Source of the DNA: Vulcanimicrobiota bacterium | Lineage (GTDB): Bacteria > Vulcanimicrobiota > Vulcanimicrobiia > Vulcanimicrobiales > Vulcanimicrobiaceae | Assembly: GCA_027459645.1 (NCBI GenBank) | Contig: DAIDHQ010000022.1 | Location: 62,001-126,000, forward strand | Direction: 5' to 3' | DNA: 64,000 nt | Shown here: piece after piece, positions 16,977-25,696 of the stretch | Position numbering within the stretch: position 1 is the first letter of the stretch | Layout of the letters: every line of letters starts with the position of its first letter | Position numbers and translations under genes: made by a program | Notes under the pieces: model-generated | What the model was told of the DNA's origin: nothing | What the model saw: the letters and a program-made list of their open reading frames with translations, nothing else | Databases searched by the model: none

Positions 16977-18002
16977 ATGGCGTCGTGCTATAGACTGCGG
17001 CTTAGTTGTGCATTTTTAACGACGATCGTGCTCGCCGCGTGCGGCGGTGGCGGCGGCGAAGCAGCCAGCATCGGCACCACGCCGGCGACCCCGGTTGCGA
17101 CCGCGACGCCCACGCCGACGGTTTTTCCGAGCGCAACGCCCACGCCGACGGTTTTTCCGAGCGCAACGCCGACACCCGAGGCGACGATCAATCCCGCTGC
17201 AATTCCAATGGGAATGATCTCCTCGAGCATAGGAAAGTGGTCGGCGACCACGCCGCAGGCCGGTTACGTGTACTCTTGCCAGAGCTCGTTTACCGGCGGC
17301 AGCAGCAACGCGCCGTGGATCGACAACACCAATCTCACGTGGAATTCCACGACGAAGCCGCACGTCGAAGGCAGCGTGAGCTGGACGTCGACCTATACCG
17401 TAGGCGCGCAGAGCGGTTCGTCGTTCACGATTTCGACGAACGATCTGCCGTTGAACGAAACGACCGGAATTTATCCGATTCAGGCAACGGATCCCGCGTA
17501 TCAGTACGATAAAAATCCGAACAGCATTCTGGCGCAAGTCTATAGCTGGACGTTGCCTTGGACTCCCACGGTAGCTTCGCAGCCAAGTTGCGTTCCGATG
17601 GGACCGATCGGCGTTACGACCGACGGTGTGGTCATGTTCAACGCGCTCGACGCAAACGGTCGTGACGCGGCAGCGTACGAAGTCCTCGACGCGTGCGGCG
17701 GCCATCCGCAGAGCAACGGCGTGTATCACTATCACGCCCTTTCGACGGCCTGTTTGAACGACACGCACGATACCGACGGACACTCGGGATTGGTCGGCTA
17801 CGCGTTCGACGGTTTCGGGGTGTACGGTCCCGACGGCGTGGGCGGAAATCAATTACAAGACAGCGATCTCGACGCGTGCCACGGGCATACGCACATGGTG
17901 CTCTTTCACGGCGTCGAGCAAGTCATCTATCACTATCATATGACGACGGAGTTTCCGTACACCGTCGGATGCTTCAAGGGAACACCGATAGCCGGGTATT
18001 AG
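16977..18002 (+). CDS. YHYH-domain lipoprotein
   Basis: 341 residues from ATG 16977, seven bases after GGAGG. The lipobox VLAACGGGGG is followed by a Thr/Pro linker containing a perfect 10-residue repeat. The YHYH domain covers the rest: GVYHYHAL in the middle, then GYAFDGFGVYGPDG, DACHGHTH and VIYHYHMTTEFPYTVGCF near the end. YHYH proteins are extracellular and of unknown function; the His clusters suggest metal (copper or nickel) binding. The 3' end is duplicated 5.2 kb away (23147-23209). It converges with the nickel/DUF4331 operon. Confidence 0.88.
   Translation: MASCYRLRLSCAFLTTIVLAACGGGGGEAASIGTTPATPVATATPTPTVFPSATPTPTVFPSATPTPEATINPAAIPMGMISSSIGKWSATTPQAGYVYSCQSSFTGGSSNAPWIDNTNLTWNSTTKPHVEGSVSWTSTYTVGAQSGSSFTISTNDLPLNETTGIYPIQATDPAYQYDKNPNSILAQVYSWTLPWTPTVASQPSCVPMGPIGVTTDGVVMFNALDANGRDAAAYEVLDACGGHPQSNGVYHYHALSTACLNDTHDTDGHSGLVGYAFDGFGVYGPDGVGGNQLQDSDLDACHGHTHMVLFHGVEQVIYHYHMTTEFPYTVGCFKGTPIAGY
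17106..17165 (+). repeat. Perfect 30-bp tandem duplication in the lipoprotein linker
   Basis: Two identical 30-bp units (17106-17135 and 17136-17165) each encode the TPTPTVFPSA linker decapeptide downstream of the lipobox. Exact identity at the DNA level indicates a recent slippage or duplication event that lengthens the spacer between membrane anchor and YHYH domain. Confidence 0.9.
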
Positions 18003-18025
18003 CGACTCGTCACGCCGAAAGATGC
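17964..18025 (+). repeat. Direct repeat, copy A (3' end of YHYH gene)
   Basis: 62 bases covering the last codons of the YHYH gene (VGCFKGTPIAGY and stop) and 23 bases beyond. Copy B at 23147-23209 differs by two substitutions and one inserted A. The pair brackets the whole minus-strand nickel/DUF4331 operon. Confidence 0.9.
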
Positions 18026-18040
18026 ACCCGATATACGCGC

Positions 18041-19354
18041 CTACTCCAATTTCGAGAGCTGCGCACGTGCATCGTCGGCTTCGGTCGGGTGAAAATTCGG
18101 GTTCTCCGCAAGCGCCTGCTTTAGCCGCCGCTTCGCCTCACGCCGGTGACCCGTATGCAGTGCGATGATTGCAGCGTGATATTGAAGTTCCGCATCCTGC
18201 GTGTTAAAGCGGACCGCGCGCTTCGAGTAGACACGTGCTTGGCGCCACTTTCCCATCGCGGCAAGCGTCCAGCTCATCGTATCATCGGCGTATATTTCAT
18301 CCCCACGCCGGTCGTAGTCACTGCGCGCCGAGTTCAGCGCGATGTTTAAGTGCACGCCCCGTTGCGCATAGTAATTCGCGAGCAAGCGATCGTTTATACC
18401 CTGCGCGTTAAAGAGACGAACTTCGGCGCCGATTAGCGCGTCGGTCTGTCGCGCATCGGACGTCATTCCGAGCGCCCGCTCTGCGTCTGCCTCATAGCCC
18501 AGCGCCTGCGGCAACGGGTAGAGCGCCGCGGCGGCCTTCGCGGCCTTTAACGTCGCACGCCAGCGCTTTTCCGCGCGAAACATGCGTGCTTGAAAGATCA
18601 GGGCCATCGCGTTGTCGGGGAACATCGTCAGGCAGGTCGCAAACTCTCGTTGCGCGGTCGCGAAATCGCCGGCCTCGAACGCCAACTGAGCGGCGCGCAT
18701 ATGAAACCACGAACGATCGGAGGCAGGGTTATTCACGTCAGAGTCGGCGATGCGCATGGCCCGGTCGATCAAGATGCGCGCCTCCGGAAGCTTGCCGGTT
18801 AGCTCGTCGTAGCGCGCCCACACGGAGTCGATGGTCGGGTTTTCGGAGGCAGGCGAACGGATCGAACGCAGCGTCGCCTTCGCCTGCGCGTATTCGCCAA
18901 GCTCCATCTGTAGCGATGCAATCTGTGCTTGCGCGTTGGCATTCGAAGGCTCGCCGCTCCAGGCGTCGCGTTCGTGCACCATTGCCTGGCGGAAATGATG
19001 ATAGGTGAGCAGCGCATTTGCGAGCGTCATCTGTGCCGGCGTATTGCCCTGCGGCTGCAACTGGATCGAGCGCCTCGCGAGCGCTTCGGCGCGGGTCACG
19101 TCGCCCAAATCGAACTGCTCTTTAAAGCGTTGCATGTAAAGGCCCGCGAGCATGCGCATTTTTATTTGATCGTTCGGAGTCCGACGCATCTCGCGTTCGT
19201 AAAACGCCACGAGCTGATCGCGCGTCTGATAGTCCGCGATCAATGGCGCGGGCGTGAACGTCGCCGTCGGCGCGCGATTCGCGCCAAAAAGCGGCCACAT
19301 GGCGAGCGCGACGATCGCGCCCGCCATGATCGGAAGTAATGACCGCAGCCGCAA
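18041..19354 (-). CDS. Membrane-anchored tetratricopeptide-repeat protein
   Basis: 437 residues from a TTG at 19354, three bases after the upstream stop; an ATG at 19327 is the alternative. An N-terminal membrane segment (LLPIMAGAIVALAMWPLF) would face the rest outward. The body is helical with TPR spacing: TRAEALARRSIQLQPQGNT, GEYAQAKATLRS, GDFATAQREFATCLTMFPDN, KWRQARVYSKRAVRFNTQDAE and HRREAKRRLKQALAENPNF. It is the last gene of a five-gene operon with nickel/cobalt transport and DUF4331 proteins and probably serves as a periplasmic scaffold for them. Confidence 0.82.
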   Translation of the reverse strand: MRLRSLLPIMAGAIVALAMWPLFGANRAPTATFTPAPLIADYQTRDQLVAFYEREMRRTPNDQIKMRMLAGLYMQRFKEQFDLGDVTRAEALARRSIQLQPQGNTPAQMTLANALLTYHHFRQAMVHERDAWSGEPSNANAQAQIASLQMELGEYAQAKATLRSIRSPASENPTIDSVWARYDELTGKLPEARILIDRAMRIADSDVNNPASDRSWFHMRAAQLAFEAGDFATAQREFATCLTMFPDNAMALIFQARMFRAEKRWRATLKAAKAAAALYPLPQALGYEADAERALGMTSDARQTDALIGAEVRLFNAQGINDRLLANYYAQRGVHLNIALNSARSDYDRRGDEIYADDTMSWTLAAMGKWRQARVYSKRAVRFNTQDAELQYHAAIIALHTGHRREAKRRLKQALAENPNFHPTEADDARAQLSKLE

Positions 19355-19357
19355 AGC

Positions 19358-19942
19358 CTAGACCGGGCCTTGCGAGTAGGGGAATGTCGTCGAGGTGAGG
19401 TAAGACGGCGTCGCTCCGGACAGGTTATCCGTAGCAAGACACGGCGATTCCTTACCGTCGTCCGGCACGACCCCGAGCGCTGAGAGTGCATTGCCAAAGA
19501 TTGCCGAGAGCGAGACATCTATCACGTCGTCGGTCAACGCGCGACCGCCGAATGTCGTCCCGACTTTGCCGCCGGTTTCAACGCCAAGGTAGCCGGCGGT
19601 AGAAGCGGATGATGAGAGGTCGACGATCATCTCATTTGGATAGAGGACGCTTTGGAGGGCGTCGGCCGTCGTCGTGCTGCGTCCGGCCACCGTGGTGGCA
19701 AACGAGACGATGTCGTTGCTGATCGTCGAGTCATTATAGGGCTCGCTCCGGTTGGTAGGGTCATGATCGCCAAAGCTCTCAAATGCTTCTTTCACCGCGG
19801 GACGGGAAAGGAGTTCGATTTGCTGATACACGGCGTTCTGCGTTGTTGGAGGAGTGGAATTGCCGCCGCCGCTGTTGCAGGCACTGAGCAGCAGCGCAAG
19901 TAATCCGCCGGCCGCCGCGCCGGCCAGTATCGTACGAAACAT
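19358..19942 (-). CDS. Lipoprotein equivalent to the C-terminal part of DUF4331
   Basis: 194 residues with a lipobox (LLALLLSACNSGGG). The mature part reads like the C-terminal third of DUF4331 proteins: VYQQIELLSRPAVKEAFESF, GGRALTDDVIDVSLSAIF and the closing TTFPYSQGP. The preceding gene supplies the N-terminal part, so the domain seems split into a secreted half and a lipid-anchored half. Both are in one operon, three bases apart. Function of DUF4331 is unknown. Confidence 0.75.
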   Translation of the reverse strand: MFRTILAGAAAGGLLALLLSACNSGGGNSTPPTTQNAVYQQIELLSRPAVKEAFESFGDHDPTNRSEPYNDSTISNDIVSFATTVAGRSTTTADALQSVLYPNEMIVDLSSSASTAGYLGVETGGKVGTTFGGRALTDDVIDVSLSAIFGNALSALGVVPDDGKESPCLATDNLSGATPSYLTSTTFPYSQGPV

Positions 19943-19945
19943 GGT

Positions 19946-20740
19946 TTAGCTCCCCGTCGTCGTGCTGGTCGTCGCCCAGAGCCCGATCTTACCGAGTGCG
20001 GAACCGGTTGGTTCGAGCATGGTCTTCGGAAGCTCTATTGCGATTTGCAGCACGTTGTAGTTAGAAAGGAAGTCCGCCGCCGGTGCGGTCGCACATCCGT
20101 TAGGATTTCCCGCCGCGAATCCGTTGAACGACGTCGCCGTCGGCGACGGCACCGTCTGACCCGGCGCATGGTACGCCGCATCGCGGTCGGGAAGGATTTT
20201 GAAGAACTGCGCGAGATCGAAGAAGAACGGATCGCGTCGCGTCCCGGCAAAGACCTGAATCTGGCCGTTGTCGAGCGTCGCCGGTTGATTGAAGGTGACG
20301 CTTCCCATCTTCGCGGTCGTCACGATTGTATTCGACGTGGACACCTCATTCGGAGGCGTCGGCCCGTACATGGTGAGCGTTTGGCTCTGCCCCGTTCCGT
20401 TCACACTGAACTGCACCACCATCGACTCGTTGTAGTTCTTATTCGCAACACCGTTTGCGATTTTGAATTGATATAACACCGCCGGATCGAAGGCGTATTG
20501 CGCATTCGACGACATGCCGCCCGGTATCAGGGGATAGACGTCCATCGCCAAGACAACGTTATTGGCATTGTCCGGGGCGGGATAAGCATAGACGTCGGTG
20601 ATATCGGCTCCGGGCCTTGCAACGACGGTCGGGGAGTCCTGATGGTCTGAACTCCGGGCCGCTTGCATGCCGTAGAGCGAGATCGCCGCGACAACGAGTG
20701 CCGATGTGGCAAACGCTGCGAGACCTCGAATAGCGTTCAT
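19946..20740 (-). CDS. DUF4331 family secreted protein (N-terminal part)
   Basis: 264 residues with a signal peptide. The hallmark SSDHQDSPTVVARPGADITD lies just after it, followed by DVYAYPAPDNANNVVLAMDVYPL, FAGTRRDPFFFDLAQFFKIL and NVLQIAIELPKTML. These are the defining parts of DUF4331; full-length members are usually longer and the missing C-terminal part is in the next gene. The start ATG overlaps the stop of the NiCoT gene (ATGA). The conserved DHxDSP motif could bind metal, consistent with the neighbouring nickel/cobalt transporters. Confidence 0.85.
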   Translation of the reverse strand: MNAIRGLAAFATSALVVAAISLYGMQAARSSDHQDSPTVVARPGADITDVYAYPAPDNANNVVLAMDVYPLIPGGMSSNAQYAFDPAVLYQFKIANGVANKNYNESMVVQFSVNGTGQSQTLTMYGPTPPNEVSTSNTIVTTAKMGSVTFNQPATLDNGQIQVFAGTRRDPFFFDLAQFFKILPDRDAAYHAPGQTVPSPTATSFNGFAAGNPNGCATAPAADFLSNYNVLQIAIELPKTMLEPTGSALGKIGLWATTSTTTGS

Positions 20741-21534
20741 GGTAGTTGCTCCATTAGTGGTTCACGGCGCGGCAATCGCGTCGCGAAGAAGATCCAAACG
20801 AAAACCGCGAGTAACCCGGCAACCAGGACGATGCTCACGTCGACGTCAGGAAAGGGCGGTCTCCAACCGAGCACGCGAACGAGCTCGTATGCCGCAACCG
20901 CGACGGCAAAAGTCGTTACGGCGATGATCCAGACACGCATGACGCGCGGCAGCGCGCCGGAACGGTACGAAACCAGCCGGTGGATGAAGAGCGAATCGAG
21001 GGTATCGGTACATACCATTCCGACGCAGAACATCGAGCCTACGAGTAAGGCGCCGGCGACGCCGGCGTCTGCAGCAAACGCGACGGCGTATGTCGCTACC
21101 TGACTCGACGTTTCAAAGCCGAAGCCGAACAGCAGGCCGATCGGTACGGCGATCCAAGGCGAGGTCGCGTCGCGTAGGGCGGCCGGTAAAACGCGGGATT
21201 TTAGACCGAAGAGACGGTCGTTTTGCCCCGCGCGCAATTGACGCACGTTGATCGCGGCGATCGCAAGCAGCACCAAGATCGACACCCAAGTTCCGGTTGC
21301 CTCGACGAGCGCTCTTTGCGCGGTGAATCGGCTGCCGAGGTAGCCGACGAGCGCGGCGATTGCCAGCACCATAATCGTGTGGCCGGCGGCAAAGAGCGTC
21401 CCGATAAAGCGCGAGAGGATCGGCGCACGTCCGACCGAGTTGCGGGTCATGTTGTCGATTGCCGCAAGATGATCGGGATCCGCGCCGTGGCGCAAGCCGA
21501 GCGCGTAAACCGTAAAGGCGTTGGTAACGATCAT
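20737..21534 (-). CDS. NiCoT-family nickel/cobalt transporter (HoxN/NixA type)
   Basis: 265 residues from ATG 21534, which overlaps the upstream stop (ATGA). The NiCoT signature in helix II reads GLRHGADPDHLAAIDN (the RHA.DADHI motif). Later helices carry GLLFGFGFETSSQVA and GMVCTDTLDSL. About eight membrane segments. It transports Ni2+ or Co2+ across the inner membrane. Coupled translation with a NicO-type efflux protein upstream and a DUF4331 protein downstream points to one metal-handling module. Confidence 0.88.
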   Translation of the reverse strand: MIVTNAFTVYALGLRHGADPDHLAAIDNMTRNSVGRAPILSRFIGTLFAAGHTIMVLAIAALVGYLGSRFTAQRALVEATGTWVSILVLLAIAAINVRQLRAGQNDRLFGLKSRVLPAALRDATSPWIAVPIGLLFGFGFETSSQVATYAVAFAADAGVAGALLVGSMFCVGMVCTDTLDSLFIHRLVSYRSGALPRVMRVWIIAVTTFAVAVAAYELVRVLGWRPPFPDVDVSIVLVAGLLAVFVWIFFATRLPRREPLMEQLP

Positions 21535-23039
21535 GATTCTCCTACGGTACGGGCATGAGTGTGCGGCGGTACGAGCGCGTAGCCGCCGATCGCAAGTATG
21601 CAAAGCGCAGCGACGGCCCAAATCGACAGCGGAACGCCCTGTGCGACGAATCCTTGACCGACCATAAGAGCGCCGACGAACGAGATGAGAATTGCGGAGA
21701 AGAGCGGCCCCAAACGCACGAGGCGTTCGAACTTGCCGCTGCGGGACACGAATGCCGACCCGTGCACGACGGCGAGACCAAGGCCGGTCAAGACCGCAGC
21801 TAGACCCATGCTAAAGACGACGATCAGGAACATACCATAGCCGAGTTGATGCAACCGTAGCGCCGCGAGCATTACGACGATCGCCGCCGGGCACGGCGCC
21901 ACGCCGCCACTGAGCGCGGCAACGACCGCGCCGCGAAAATCGATTGGGCCGTTCCCCGGGATCACGTGGGCGTGTCCGTCGGCACCGTCGCCGTGATGGT
22001 GGTCGCCCGTATGAGCGTGACGATGCATCACGCCTTCGTGTTCGTGCCCGTAGCGCGCTCGAACGAACTTAGCGAGGTTACGAGCGCCGATGATCGCCAC
22101 CGCCGCTCCCGAAAGAAGCGTGATCCAAGGATAGATCGATTCTGATGCAAAGCCGACTGCGAAGAACAACACGAACCCTAGAATGAACACTCCGACCGTG
22201 TGGGCGAAGGTAAGCGACGCTGCCAGTATCACCGCTTGACGTACGGTTGCGCGCGACCCGACAAGCGTAAACGCGAGGAGCGCCTTGCCATGTCCCGGTT
22301 CGATCGCGTGCAACGCGCCGAGACCGAAGGCGACTAGAATGGTGAACAAAACGAAAAGCGGCGTGCGGTTACCGCTCGAAAACATTTCGGAAAGCGCGTT
22401 GATTCGAACGAGCGAGTTGGAGCCGTTGATGTCGGCGACGGCTTCGCTGGACGCAACGATGTGCGAAGGCACACCCGTTGGGGACAGGACAAAAGCCAGA
22501 CGGTTGATCTGTCGAGGCGACCCTATGAGGGCCGATGGATAATGACGCAGTTCGTTCGTGGGCTCCGTCTGGGGCGAAATGATGATGTCTTTCCAGCCAA
22601 TTCGACGCTCGCGATACACCGTGTCCGATACCAAAACGCGTCGAGTTCCTGGCGGAAGGGTCGCCGTAAAGTCCGCAACCCAGTAGAGCAGCGGCAACCC
22701 GGCGGCGCCTGGGCGAATGCGTGCGTGTTCGTGCACAAGCTGCAAGCGCAGGTCCGAGCTGTCGACGGTGACGTGGAGTCCGTGCAGAACTGTCGGAACT
22801 TCGCTTGCGGCCCAGCGGTTCAAGTCGCGCGAGGTCCAGCGCCCGGTTGGAGATGACGCTCGCATGATCTGAAAACTGGGTATTTCCGCGATATCCAGCA
22901 CGTAGCGAACGTGCAGCGTGCTACCGCTCGCGCGGAGCACGGCAAGATGATTGATGGTGAAATTCCCAAGCGGGTGAGCCCATGCCGTTCCGCATAAGCT
23001 CGCAAACAAGACAACCGCCGCCACGATGCGTCGCCACAT
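21531..23039 (-). CDS. NicO/RcnA-like nickel/cobalt efflux protein with periplasmic N-terminal domain
   Basis: 502 residues. A signal peptide ends at AWA and is followed by HPLGNFTINHLAVLR and a domain of about 190 residues (the HupE/UreJ-like 'HPLGNFS' region). The membrane part starts near residue 225 with GALHAIEPGHGKALLAF, the NicO signature. It contains a cytoplasmic His-rich loop (HEHEGVMHRHAHTGDHHHG) and ends with GGVAPCPAAIVVM and further helices. His-rich loops are typical of metal sensing or binding in RcnA relatives. It is the first gene of the operon, so it sets its expression; upstream I see no recognised riboswitch. Confidence 0.87.
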   Translation of the reverse strand: MWRRIVAAVVLFASLCGTAWAHPLGNFTINHLAVLRASGSTLHVRYVLDIAEIPSFQIMRASSPTGRWTSRDLNRWAASEVPTVLHGLHVTVDSSDLRLQLVHEHARIRPGAAGLPLLYWVADFTATLPPGTRRVLVSDTVYRERRIGWKDIIISPQTEPTNELRHYPSALIGSPRQINRLAFVLSPTGVPSHIVASSEAVADINGSNSLVRINALSEMFSSGNRTPLFVLFTILVAFGLGALHAIEPGHGKALLAFTLVGSRATVRQAVILAASLTFAHTVGVFILGFVLFFAVGFASESIYPWITLLSGAAVAIIGARNLAKFVRARYGHEHEGVMHRHAHTGDHHHGDGADGHAHVIPGNGPIDFRGAVVAALSGGVAPCPAAIVVMLAALRLHQLGYGMFLIVVFSMGLAAVLTGLGLAVVHGSAFVSRSGKFERLVRLGPLFSAILISFVGALMVGQGFVAQGVPLSIWAVAALCILAIGGYALVPPHTHARTVGES

Positions 23040-23091: not shown

Positions 23092-23185
23092 TATGGGAGC
23101 GGGCCACCCGATTCGCCGATGGAAGTTTCCGGATACGGCGGAAGGCGTCGGATGCTTCAAGGAAACACCGATAGCCGGGTATTAG
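23092..23185 (+). pseudogene. Relic of a second YHYH gene (3' end only)
   Basis: An open stretch from ATG 23093 reads MGAGHPIRRWKFPDTAEG and then VGCFKETPIAGY with a TAG at 23183-23185. The last 12 residues differ from the YHYH lipoprotein C-terminus at one position only, and KFPDTAEG aligns loosely with its EFPYT. The rest of the domain is absent. It overlaps the promoter region of the NicO operon. Confidence 0.7.
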
Positions 23186-23209
23186 GGACTCGTCACGCCG
23201 AAAAGATGC
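23147..23209 (+). repeat. Direct repeat, copy B
   Basis: 63 bases nearly identical to 17964-18025, including the stop codon and 24 bases of non-coding sequence. Because the match extends past the stop, it reflects DNA duplication, not protein-level conservation. Confidence 0.9.
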
Positions 23210-24677: not shown

Positions 24678-25313
24678 CTAGCACTTCCGGGTGAGGTGGA
24701 GATCGCCGCTGAGATGCTTGCCGTCTTTCGAAAGCGTCAGCGTGTGCAATCCGTAATAGGCGATCGAAGCTTTGTCGCCGTTGAGCGCCCAGTTGCCGGA
24801 GACGCCGTCTTGATCGGTTAAGCCGCCGTCCGCCGTCATCGTGATGACTTTGGTCGAATCGTTATCGTTCGTCCAGGTGCCGAGCAGATTGGTCGTCGTG
24901 CAACCGCTGGGCGGCGGGGTCGGCGTCGGCAACGGGTAGACTTGCTGTCCCGAAAACTTGTGCGCTACGTCGAGGCACAGAATCTCCGCAGTGTACGGAT
25001 TCGGCGGTGCTTGGATGGCGCACACGAACATTGCCGAGTAGCCCTTTTGATAGGGAACGCAACGGACGACGGCGGTGGCGGTGTTAGCCGTCGTTCCTTG
25101 CGGACCGTTTGCCGTCCACACGCCGCTGTTGGCCGCCGTTTCGGCGACGTTTGAAAGGTACGTACTGAGCGCTTCTTGCGCTTTGGTATTGCACGTCGCG
25201 AGCGGCTCGTTCGGTTCGACGTAACGAATGCCCGAAGTCATTTGGAGTTCCGCGTGCGCGGCGCCGGAGAGCGCGAGAACCGCGACGGCGAAGGCGGCGA
25301 GAAAACGCTTCAC
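24678..25313 (-). CDS. Secreted hypothetical protein with C-terminal lipocalin-like domain
   Basis: 211 residues from GTG 25313, which forms a GTGA overlap with the upstream stop. Signal peptide FLAAFAVAVLALSGAAHA. The N-terminal domain (residues 20-110, with paired Cys at ATCNTKAQEAL and VVRCVPYQKG) is homologous to the upstream protein. After a Pro/Thr linker (LPTPTPPPSGC) a second domain TNLLGTWTNDNDST...SGNWALNGDKASIAYYG resembles a small lipocalin/'META'-type beta barrel. Function unknown. Confidence 0.7.
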   Translation of the reverse strand: MKRFLAAFAVAVLALSGAAHAELQMTSGIRYVEPNEPLATCNTKAQEALSTYLSNVAETAANSGVWTANGPQGTTANTATAVVRCVPYQKGYSAMFVCAIQAPPNPYTAEILCLDVAHKFSGQQVYPLPTPTPPPSGCTTTNLLGTWTNDNDSTKVITMTADGGLTDQDGVSGNWALNGDKASIAYYGLHTLTLSKDGKHLSGDLHLTRKC

Positions 25314-25696
25314 GGCGTACCGAACGCTTTGCTGATCTTCGTGCAAAGATCGGTTGCCGTTTCACCGCCGGCCGCGGTTTGCACGGCGCAGGTGAACGAG
25401 ACGATGTATCCTTCGTCGGTTGGGAAGCAGTGTACCGCTGCCGACGCTTTGGTCTTGGGATCGGGAGCGTCTTTTGCTACCCACATGCCCGTGCCGGTGC
25501 CGATTTCCACGGCGCCGGTCAGCGCGCTATCCAATGCAGCCTTCGCTTTGGTGCTGCAGTCGGCGAGCGGACCTTTCGCGATCGTAATCGGCGGCCCGGC
25601 GTACAGGTCGACCGACGCAAGTGCCGGTGCGGCCGTCAAGAGTACGGCGGCCACCGGCGCAAAGAACAAGAGGGTTCGAGGATGCGCCAAATTCAT
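25310..25696 (-). CDS. Small secreted hypothetical protein
   Basis: 128 residues with signal peptide RTLLFFAPVAAVLLTAAPALA. The mature part has four Cys-bearing strands (ADCSTKAKAALDSALTG, AAVHCFPTDEGYIVSFTCAV, TDLCTKISKAFG). The same layout recurs in the downstream gene, so the two are tandem paralogues in one operon. No function recognised. Confidence 0.7.
   Translation of the reverse strand: MNLAHPRTLLFFAPVAAVLLTAAPALASVDLYAGPPITIAKGPLADCSTKAKAALDSALTGAVEIGTGTGMWVAKDAPDPKTKASAAVHCFPTDEGYIVSFTCAVQTAAGGETATDLCTKISKAFGTP

Follow-up and report, generated by a model that had tools for sequence, protein, structure and literature searches.

The window studied here, a 64,000-nucleotide stretch from a Vulcanimicrobiota bacterium (GenBank assembly GCA_027459645.1, contig DAIDHQ010000022.1, positions 62,001 to 126,000), contains at positions 18041-23039 five minus-strand genes encoding, in this order, a NicO/RcnA-like permease, a NiCoT-type nickel/cobalt permease, the N half and the C half of a protein of the domain of unknown function family DUF4331 (PF14224), and a tetratricopeptide repeat (TPR) protein (Table 1). 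With moderate confidence we take this operon to be a variant of a metal-handling module conserved among bacteria, which combines DUF4331 with a dedicated TPR protein and a LysE-superfamily permease of the nickel/cobalt class, and in which DUF4331 would capture metal or pass it on at the permease. Full-text searches of open-licence PMC papers found none naming "DUF4331" or "PF14224", in line with the statement of an earlier note on this DNA that DUF4331 has no known role, and in the titles and opening abstract lines listed by further searches of these papers a DUF4331-TPR-permease system is not named, the related PMC12537917 excepted. The genome is 3.14 Mb long and 96.55% complete, and its nearest sequences are mostly labelled as Eremiobacterota metagenome-assembled genomes (MAGs).

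The module reading draws support from the gene neighbourhood. When loci were collected by their similarity to the N half, 26 of 29 showed NicO, DUF4331 and TPR side by side (the exceptions are L041, L051 and L056; L043 equals L044 in sequence). In a set of 60 genomes, made up of that of the window and those of 59 relatives, 30 carry DUF4331 and 36 carry PF03824, the Pfam family of NicO and NiCoT. PF03824 lies within 5 kb of 27 of the 51 DUF4331 loci, and these 27 are spread over 24 of the 30 genomes with DUF4331. Conversely, of 67 PF03824 places counted, 44 lie within 5 kb of DUF4331, where some 0.2 would be expected by chance (rounded genome sizes, ~0.6 of 170 Mb); this count takes one to three match rows per locus and leaves out further fragments of the same loci. 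Among 77 non-duplicate loci, for which cyanobacterial genomes and plasmid records were added and whose total is inflated by the near relatives in the similarity-based collection, a TPR homologue is present within 1.5 kb in 53, a NicO, NiCoT or HupE gene within 5 kb in 48, and both in 46. DUF4331 was found in 12 of 146 cyanobacterial genomes, and both partners accompany it at 13 of 16 cyanobacterial loci (four of the 16 from the similarity-fetched set). A later set consisted of 40 stretches from 35 of 249 Gemmatimonadota genomes and eight more plasmid loci; with L182 unscorable, 47 were scored, of which 36 have the TPR gene, 22 a permease and 21 both. DUF4331 itself occurs in at least six phyla among the sequences studied, and the three components stand together in Eremiobacterota, Cyanobacteriota, Gemmatimonadota, Actinomycetota and Pseudomonadota. 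In Adhaeribacter (Bacteroidota) and Miltoncostaea, DUF4331 and TPR are found without a permease in the stretch seen. The conserved neighbourhood with NicO/NiCoT that the earlier note had proposed as a check was found, and the opposite finding it had named, DUF4331 elsewhere lacking any link with metal transporters, was not obtained, since the association, though not universal, extends to five phyla and to three nickel-permease Pfam families. As a side observation, the genome of locus L045 (JANYGA010000197.1, labelled Rhodospirillales) has its DUF4331 matches at coordinates identical to those in G008, from the window's family, and is probably a mislabelled MAG.

The TPR protein appears to be specific to this setting. 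It has an N-terminal hydrophobic segment, and within its own genome it matches only itself at E 1e-3 (18 candidates scored). Among two sets of loci only three TPR matches above 100 bits were found away from DUF4331 (L064, L090 and L105). A chance TPR neighbour was therefore rejected on these self-match and locus data.

The permease family changes while DUF4331 and TPR stay. A NicO protein is the partner in Eremiobacterota, at most cyanobacterial loci and in Streptomyces; HupE_UreJ_2 (PF13795), found in proteobacterial operons and not matched by the window's NicO, replaces it in Marinobacter, Pseudoalteromonas, Lichenicola, a comamonad, Paraburkholderia and Variovorax. A mostly short HupE_UreJ_2 takes this place in Gemmatimonadota (Pfam was run on 3 of 17 gemmatimonad open reading frames, ORFs). 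On two Rhizobium plasmids, non-secreted DUF4331 genes starting Met-Ser-His-His (L122, 8109-9254; L123, 8033-8596) directly precede nickel permeases, a full-length NiCoT (PF03824, 315 bits) and a HupE_UreJ protein (PF04955, 165 bits); the other ten non-secreted members have no Pfam-confirmed nickel permease as neighbour (for L200 and L201, annotated neighbours only).

The window's NicO reaches 26.0 bits against PF03824 (cut-off 27.7), or just above the cut-off, 28.1 bits, in a six-frame search of the genome, and its sole NCBIfam match is PRK10019/RcnA (105.1 bits, E 3.6e-30; the cut-off of 195 is not reached). With the RcnA/NicO efflux proteins it shares the HX4GH motif, this match and a His-rich loop; at least 8 His per 30 residues are found in 44 of 46 NicO ORFs longer than 400 aa (duplicates included). 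It differs from them in its large N-terminal extracytoplasmic domain, its sub-cut-off score and its DUF4331 and TPR company. The second gene has the HX4DH motif and a PF03824 score over the cut-off in common with NiCoT proteins such as HoxN and NixA, but its product is short and scores 85.1 bits against TIGR00802, far under the cut-off of 333.05.

DUF4331 contains a single strongly conserved His, found in 71 of 80 sequences in the aligned column and embedded in Ser-[Asp/Ser/Asn]-His. For each possible register we asked whether a signal peptidase I cut could leave this His at that mature position, using a lenient rule (-1 A/G/S/C/T; -3 A/V/G/S/T/I/L/C). Mature position 3 fits 66 of 67 secreted members, other registers between 4 and 42; with a stricter rule position 3 fits 39 of 67 and the next best register 11. 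For a holdout of unseen sequences, with the prediction recorded beforehand, position 3 fits 45 of 45 by the lenient rule (other registers 3-30), and Ala replaces Ser at position 1 in seven of the 45. The single miss, L114, starts at its annotated GTG as Val(Met)-Ser-Asn-His, and three more sequences outside both counts (the second copies of L047 and L061, and L063) agree with position 3 by eye. The counts are not independent, as many rows are close kin; the pattern nevertheless occurs in Eremiobacterota, Cyanobacteriota, Gemmatimonadota, Actinomycetota, Bacteroidota and Pseudomonadota.

Non-secreted DUF4331 proteins start with Met/Val-Ser-[Asp/His/Asn]-His in 12 of 12 cases (L064, L074, L083, L084, L091, L114, L115, L122, L123 from its annotated start, L193, L200 and L201). 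These loci contain 10,037 ORFs in total; 25 have a Met/Val-Ser-X-His start, and eight of these 25 are DUF4331 (seven distinct). Methionine aminopeptidase removes Met before Ser, so these members should expose the same NH2-Ser-X-His. An NH2-X-X-His end is the amino-terminal Cu(II)- and Ni(II)-binding (ATCUN) motif; at the level of sequence such a free end is found here, with cleavage predicted by the lenient rule, and the processed N-terminus of DUF4331 is accordingly predicted to be an ATCUN-like nickel/copper site. Second DUF4331 pairs within the operon at L045 (12895-14387) and L097 (11049-12550) have lost both the N-terminal Ser and the His, and are possibly non-binding partner copies.

A candidate metal site is also predicted at the N-terminus of the neighbouring permease. 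The window's NicO has a 21-residue signal peptide whose predicted cleavage leaves His as the first mature residue. His directly follows the signal peptide in 39 of 46 NicO ORFs, a set that includes a few genes fetched twice: 30 by a strict pattern and nine by eye, the latter comprising five AHPLGNFTINH, three cyanobacterial AHWADL or SHWSDL, and one with a mis-set ORF start whose annotated start gives AAAHPLGNFTVNH. Six of the remaining ORFs are cut by the locus end, including L001, which duplicates the gene of the window, and the lone ORF without the N-terminal domain, L081, comes from a genome without DUF4331. We base the His1 count on these 46 ORFs, as sequence sets picked by the HPLGN motif make an "invariant His1" circular. 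Proteobacterial HupE partners likewise show a signal peptide followed by His (4 of 4, plus L118 and L119). Gemmatimonadota loci such as L157, L163 and L169 mostly have a HupE_UreJ_2 of about 200 aa without an N-terminal domain, so the His1 domain is not obligatory; one gemmatimonad HupE ORF (L154, 366 aa) has an N-terminal domain.

The NicO N-terminal domain was modelled with AlphaFold2 from 24 sequences, with a predicted local distance difference test score (pLDDT) of 85.5. No PDB sequence match was found for NicO or DUF4331. By structure, the best Foldseek match in the PDB is 9GCE, an Ang-1 domain with bound copper from a HupE/UreJ-2 protein (E 7.4e-7, probability 1.00, template-modelling (TM) scores 0.46/0.54, 15% identity). 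VIA also ranks 9GCE first (Z 9.3, root-mean-square deviation 3.4, 136 aligned), followed by zinc-bound ZrgA (8.0) and PA4063 (up to 7.2), with folds of the major histocompatibility complex type from 5.8. The domain is thus predicted, from the model, to have the Ang-1 fold. According to the excerpted text of PMC12537917, Ang-1 binds copper and nickel with His1 as a ligand, and Ang-1 domains on HupE/UreJ-2 permeases are proposed to capture metal for uptake. The anglerases Ang-1 and Ang-2 described there share with the window's NicO a signal peptide, a mature N-terminal His, a beta-sandwich and a permease of the nickel class; they differ in that the window permease is NicO rather than HupE/UreJ-2, and the excerpts name no DUF4331 partner for them. 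The same excerpts (PMC12537917) present DUF4198, linked to nickel genes, and DUF6702 as extracytoplasmic proteins with the processed N-terminus as metal ligand, as is predicted for DUF4331, with the difference that their His is residue 1 and that of DUF4331 would be residue 3.

The five-gene order, the overlaps and the three-base gaps given in the earlier note were confirmed: ATGA overlaps join NicO to NiCoT (21531-21534) and NiCoT to the DUF4331 N half (20737-20740), and three-base gaps separate the DUF4331 halves (TAA-ACC-ATG) and precede the TPR gene (TAG-GCT-TTG). The note's view of DUF4331 as a periplasmic partner, and of the C half as lipid-anchored, also fits. The halves form one frame that is broken by a single TAA and an inserted lipoprotein signal; read through the stop, the PF14224 match spans positions 1-421 with 145.6 bits, each half alone also exceeding the gathering cut-off of 27. 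By a loose pattern, a lipobox is present in 39 of 43 rows of separate C halves, a count that contains duplicates and two doubtful cases, and in 33 of 33 in the later set. In a quick tree of 80 DUF4331 sequences (42 single, 38 split) the split state changes five times, at least four of the changes forced by well-supported branches, as against about 27 in shuffles. A pseudogene or sequencing error was considered and rejected, because the C half has its own lipobox, single-chain relatives lack the insert and the split recurs on the tree. Judged from these sequences, the split is genuine and recurrent, the Eremiobacterota, a cyanobacterial trio and a gemmatimonad having split separately unless relatives reverted.

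A model of the single-chain relative L041 (pLDDT 83.3, predicted TM score 0.86) gives the N half as a beta-sandwich and the C half as one strand plus helices, with the split point between two strands; the best VIA matches of this model are antibody domains (Z 6.0). Asp39, Gly156, Gly378 and Arg379 (joined window numbering) are invariant in 80 of 80 sequences, and Asp160, Asp316, Asp383 and Asp384 are conserved in 73-75. Since conserved polar residues come from both halves, the N and C halves probably assemble. Some proteobacterial systems carry a separate small lipoprotein gene between single-chain DUF4331 and TPR (L108, 9502-9807; L109, 9440-9685; L065, 8959-9471), as though the split form's lipid anchor were here encoded separately.

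On these grounds the following mechanism can be proposed. DUF4331 would be exported and cut by signal peptidase to leave NH2-Ser-Asp-His (NH2-Ser/Ala-X-His in the family), an end that would suit Ni(II) or Cu(II) in square-planar geometry. The soluble N half and the C half would form one fold, tethered near the membrane because the C half is lipid-anchored. At its processed N-terminus DUF4331 would collect nickel (or cobalt or copper) outside the cytoplasmic membrane and exchange the ion with the N-terminal His domain of NicO; NicO would then move it, NiCoT would offer a second membrane route, and the TPR protein may hold the partners together. Nickel is favoured because the partners belong to nickel-permease families and two non-secreted DUF4331 genes adjoin nickel permeases. 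NiCoT and HupE are uptake families. Together with the proposed role of Ang-1 in uptake, put forward in the excerpts of PMC12537917, this points to uptake. The earlier note's interpretation, a metal-export or metallation complex with DUF4331 as periplasmic partner, is supported in part: for export the one argument is the likeness to RcnA, and no metalloenzyme turned up that could be a dedicated client.

Several observations weigh against such a module. The His is missing in seven of the 80 DUF4331 sequences (the second copies of L045 and L097, L086, L094, L101, L102 and L103). Neither TPR nor permease is present at 22 of the 77 loci and at 10 of the 47 later loci. Seven non-secreted members are among the 22, as are three loci from Rhodobacterales where a type II secretion operon adjoins DUF4331; at seven of the 22 the stored sequence stops within 1 kb, and one more, L072, was missed because its cluster occupies both strands. 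In all, five Rhodobacterales plasmid loci (L110, L111, L112, L120 and L121) place DUF4331 beside a type II secretion operon with no TPR or permease. Of the 17 gemmatimonad HupE ORFs, ten are 190-205 aa long and six have unclear starts. The permease half of NicO resembles the exporter RcnA, no structure in the PDB is convincingly related to the DUF4331 model (Foldseek E 2.0e-3 at best, TM 0.18), which by itself is no proof of a new fold, and the many conserved acidic residues and an Arg of DUF4331 would suit an enzyme. Finally, searches of the window genome turned up no [NiFe]-hydrogenase and no urease alpha, which weighs against a simple nickel-supply story; supply of nickel to these two enzymes as the purpose is unsupported for this genome. 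Hydrogenases above 100 bits occur in 12 of the 30 genomes that carry DUF4331 and in 3 of the 30 that do not (Fisher p 0.015, uncorrected for kinship and genome size). At the Rhodobacterales loci, where a prepilin peptidase gene is shown at four of the five, DUF4331 may be a secreted type II substrate.

Some of these points would be accounted for if DUF4331 were itself a metalloenzyme and thus the client, the permeases and TPR protein supplying and inserting metal outside the membrane for the sake of a reaction rather than transport. Invariant or near-invariant residues besides the His, drawn from both halves, DUF4331 genes that stand alone or beside type II secretion without a permease, and the negative search for the two nickel enzymes in the genome all agree with it; but no catalytic fold was recognised in the DUF4331 model, and we regard this explanation as rather unlikely. 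Less likely again is a metal-tolerance module, with NicO exporting nickel or cobalt like RcnA and DUF4331 binding the exported metal outside. It draws on the HX4GH motif, the His-rich loop and RcnA as sole NCBIfam match, but has to accommodate NicO being paired with NiCoT or replaced by HupE, both uptake families, and the uptake role proposed for Ang-1 domains in the excerpts of PMC12537917; moreover, no RcnR-like repressor was seen among the ten neighbouring proteins scanned, a small sample.

The conserved N-terminal Ser-X-His might also be structural or catalytic without a transition metal, the permease carrying something else. Position 1 is mostly Ser (71 of 80, with the Ala cases of the holdout), a conservation that exceeds what an ATCUN site needs, and LysE-superfamily permeases carry varied substrates. 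Given that the adjoining permeases fall in three nickel-permease families, and that the solved structure closest to the N-terminal domain of one of them is a copper-binding one, this is the least probable of the explanations and in our view very unlikely. The metal-handling module is retained as the preferred reading.

From its surroundings the operon looks inserted between a YHYH (PF14240) gene and a DUF4139 gene. It is flanked by 58-nt direct repeats that correspond to the 3' end of the YHYH gene, and a 35-base core of the repeat occurs in the genome only at these two sites at up to three mismatches. Relatives were checked for an empty site between these two genes: the two fetched loci with a YHYH homologue, of 2.9 and 3.8 kb, show no DUF4139. 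Two ORFs at 24678-25346 and 25310-25696 are adjacent and related to each other, with no Pfam match at E 1e-3.

Table 1. Features of the DUF4331 operon and its flanks (window positions)
Feature	Position	Strand	Basis
NicO/RcnA-type permease with N-terminal extracytoplasmic domain, 502 aa	21531..23039	-	PF03824 over residues 231-351; NCBIfam PRK10019; both under cut-off
NicO signal peptide, ending AWA before His	22977..23039	-	sequence; predicted cleavage
Ang-1-like domain of NicO (predicted), starting NH2-His (HPLGNFTINH)	22374..22976	-	AlphaFold2 model, 9GCE match
HX4GH motif HAIEPGH, first NicO permease helix	22290..22310	-	sequence
His-rich loop of NicO protein	21966..22046	-	sequence
NiCoT-type Ni/Co permease, 265 aa from ATG	20737..21534	-	PF03824, 74.9 bits
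HX4DH motif HGADPDH of NiCoT	21469-21489	-	sequence
DUF4331 N half, secreted, 264 aa	19946..20740	-	PF14224 1-238, 114.6 bits
Predicted signal peptide of DUF4331 N half, ...AARS (-3 Ala, -1 Ser)	20651..20740	-	(-3,-1) rule
Predicted mature N-terminus Ser-Asp-His, ATCUN-like NH2-X-X-His	20642..20650	-	sequence; predicted cleavage
DUF4331 C half, lipoprotein, 194 aa	19358..19942	-	PF14224 247-421, 47.8 bits
Lipobox LSAC of DUF4331 C half	19877..19888	-	sequence
TPR protein with N-terminal hydrophobic segment, 437 aa, TTG start	18041..19354	-	TPR_19, 62 bits
58-nt direct repeat, left copy, 3' end of YHYH gene	17963..18020	+	sequence comparison
58-nt direct repeat, right copy, 97% identical	23146..23203	+	sequence comparison

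A broader statement can be put forward tentatively, and we hold it as possible rather than probable: DUF4331 proteins would be widespread ATCUN metalloproteins whose nickel/copper site is made by processing, through signal peptidase I or, in the cytosolic members, methionine aminopeptidase. With the TPR protein and an exchangeable permease they would form a new kind of transporter, a secondary permease served by a metal-capture protein that uses its N-terminal amine, divided in some lineages into a soluble and a lipid-anchored half. The processed N-terminus offers an immediate functional test for the whole DUF4331 family and extends the 2025 "N-terminal His" approach to a His at position 3. 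Several uncharacterised nickel-class permeases may work with an outside partner, and the recurrent split, with a lipid anchor on one half, would represent a natural protein of two differently located chains.

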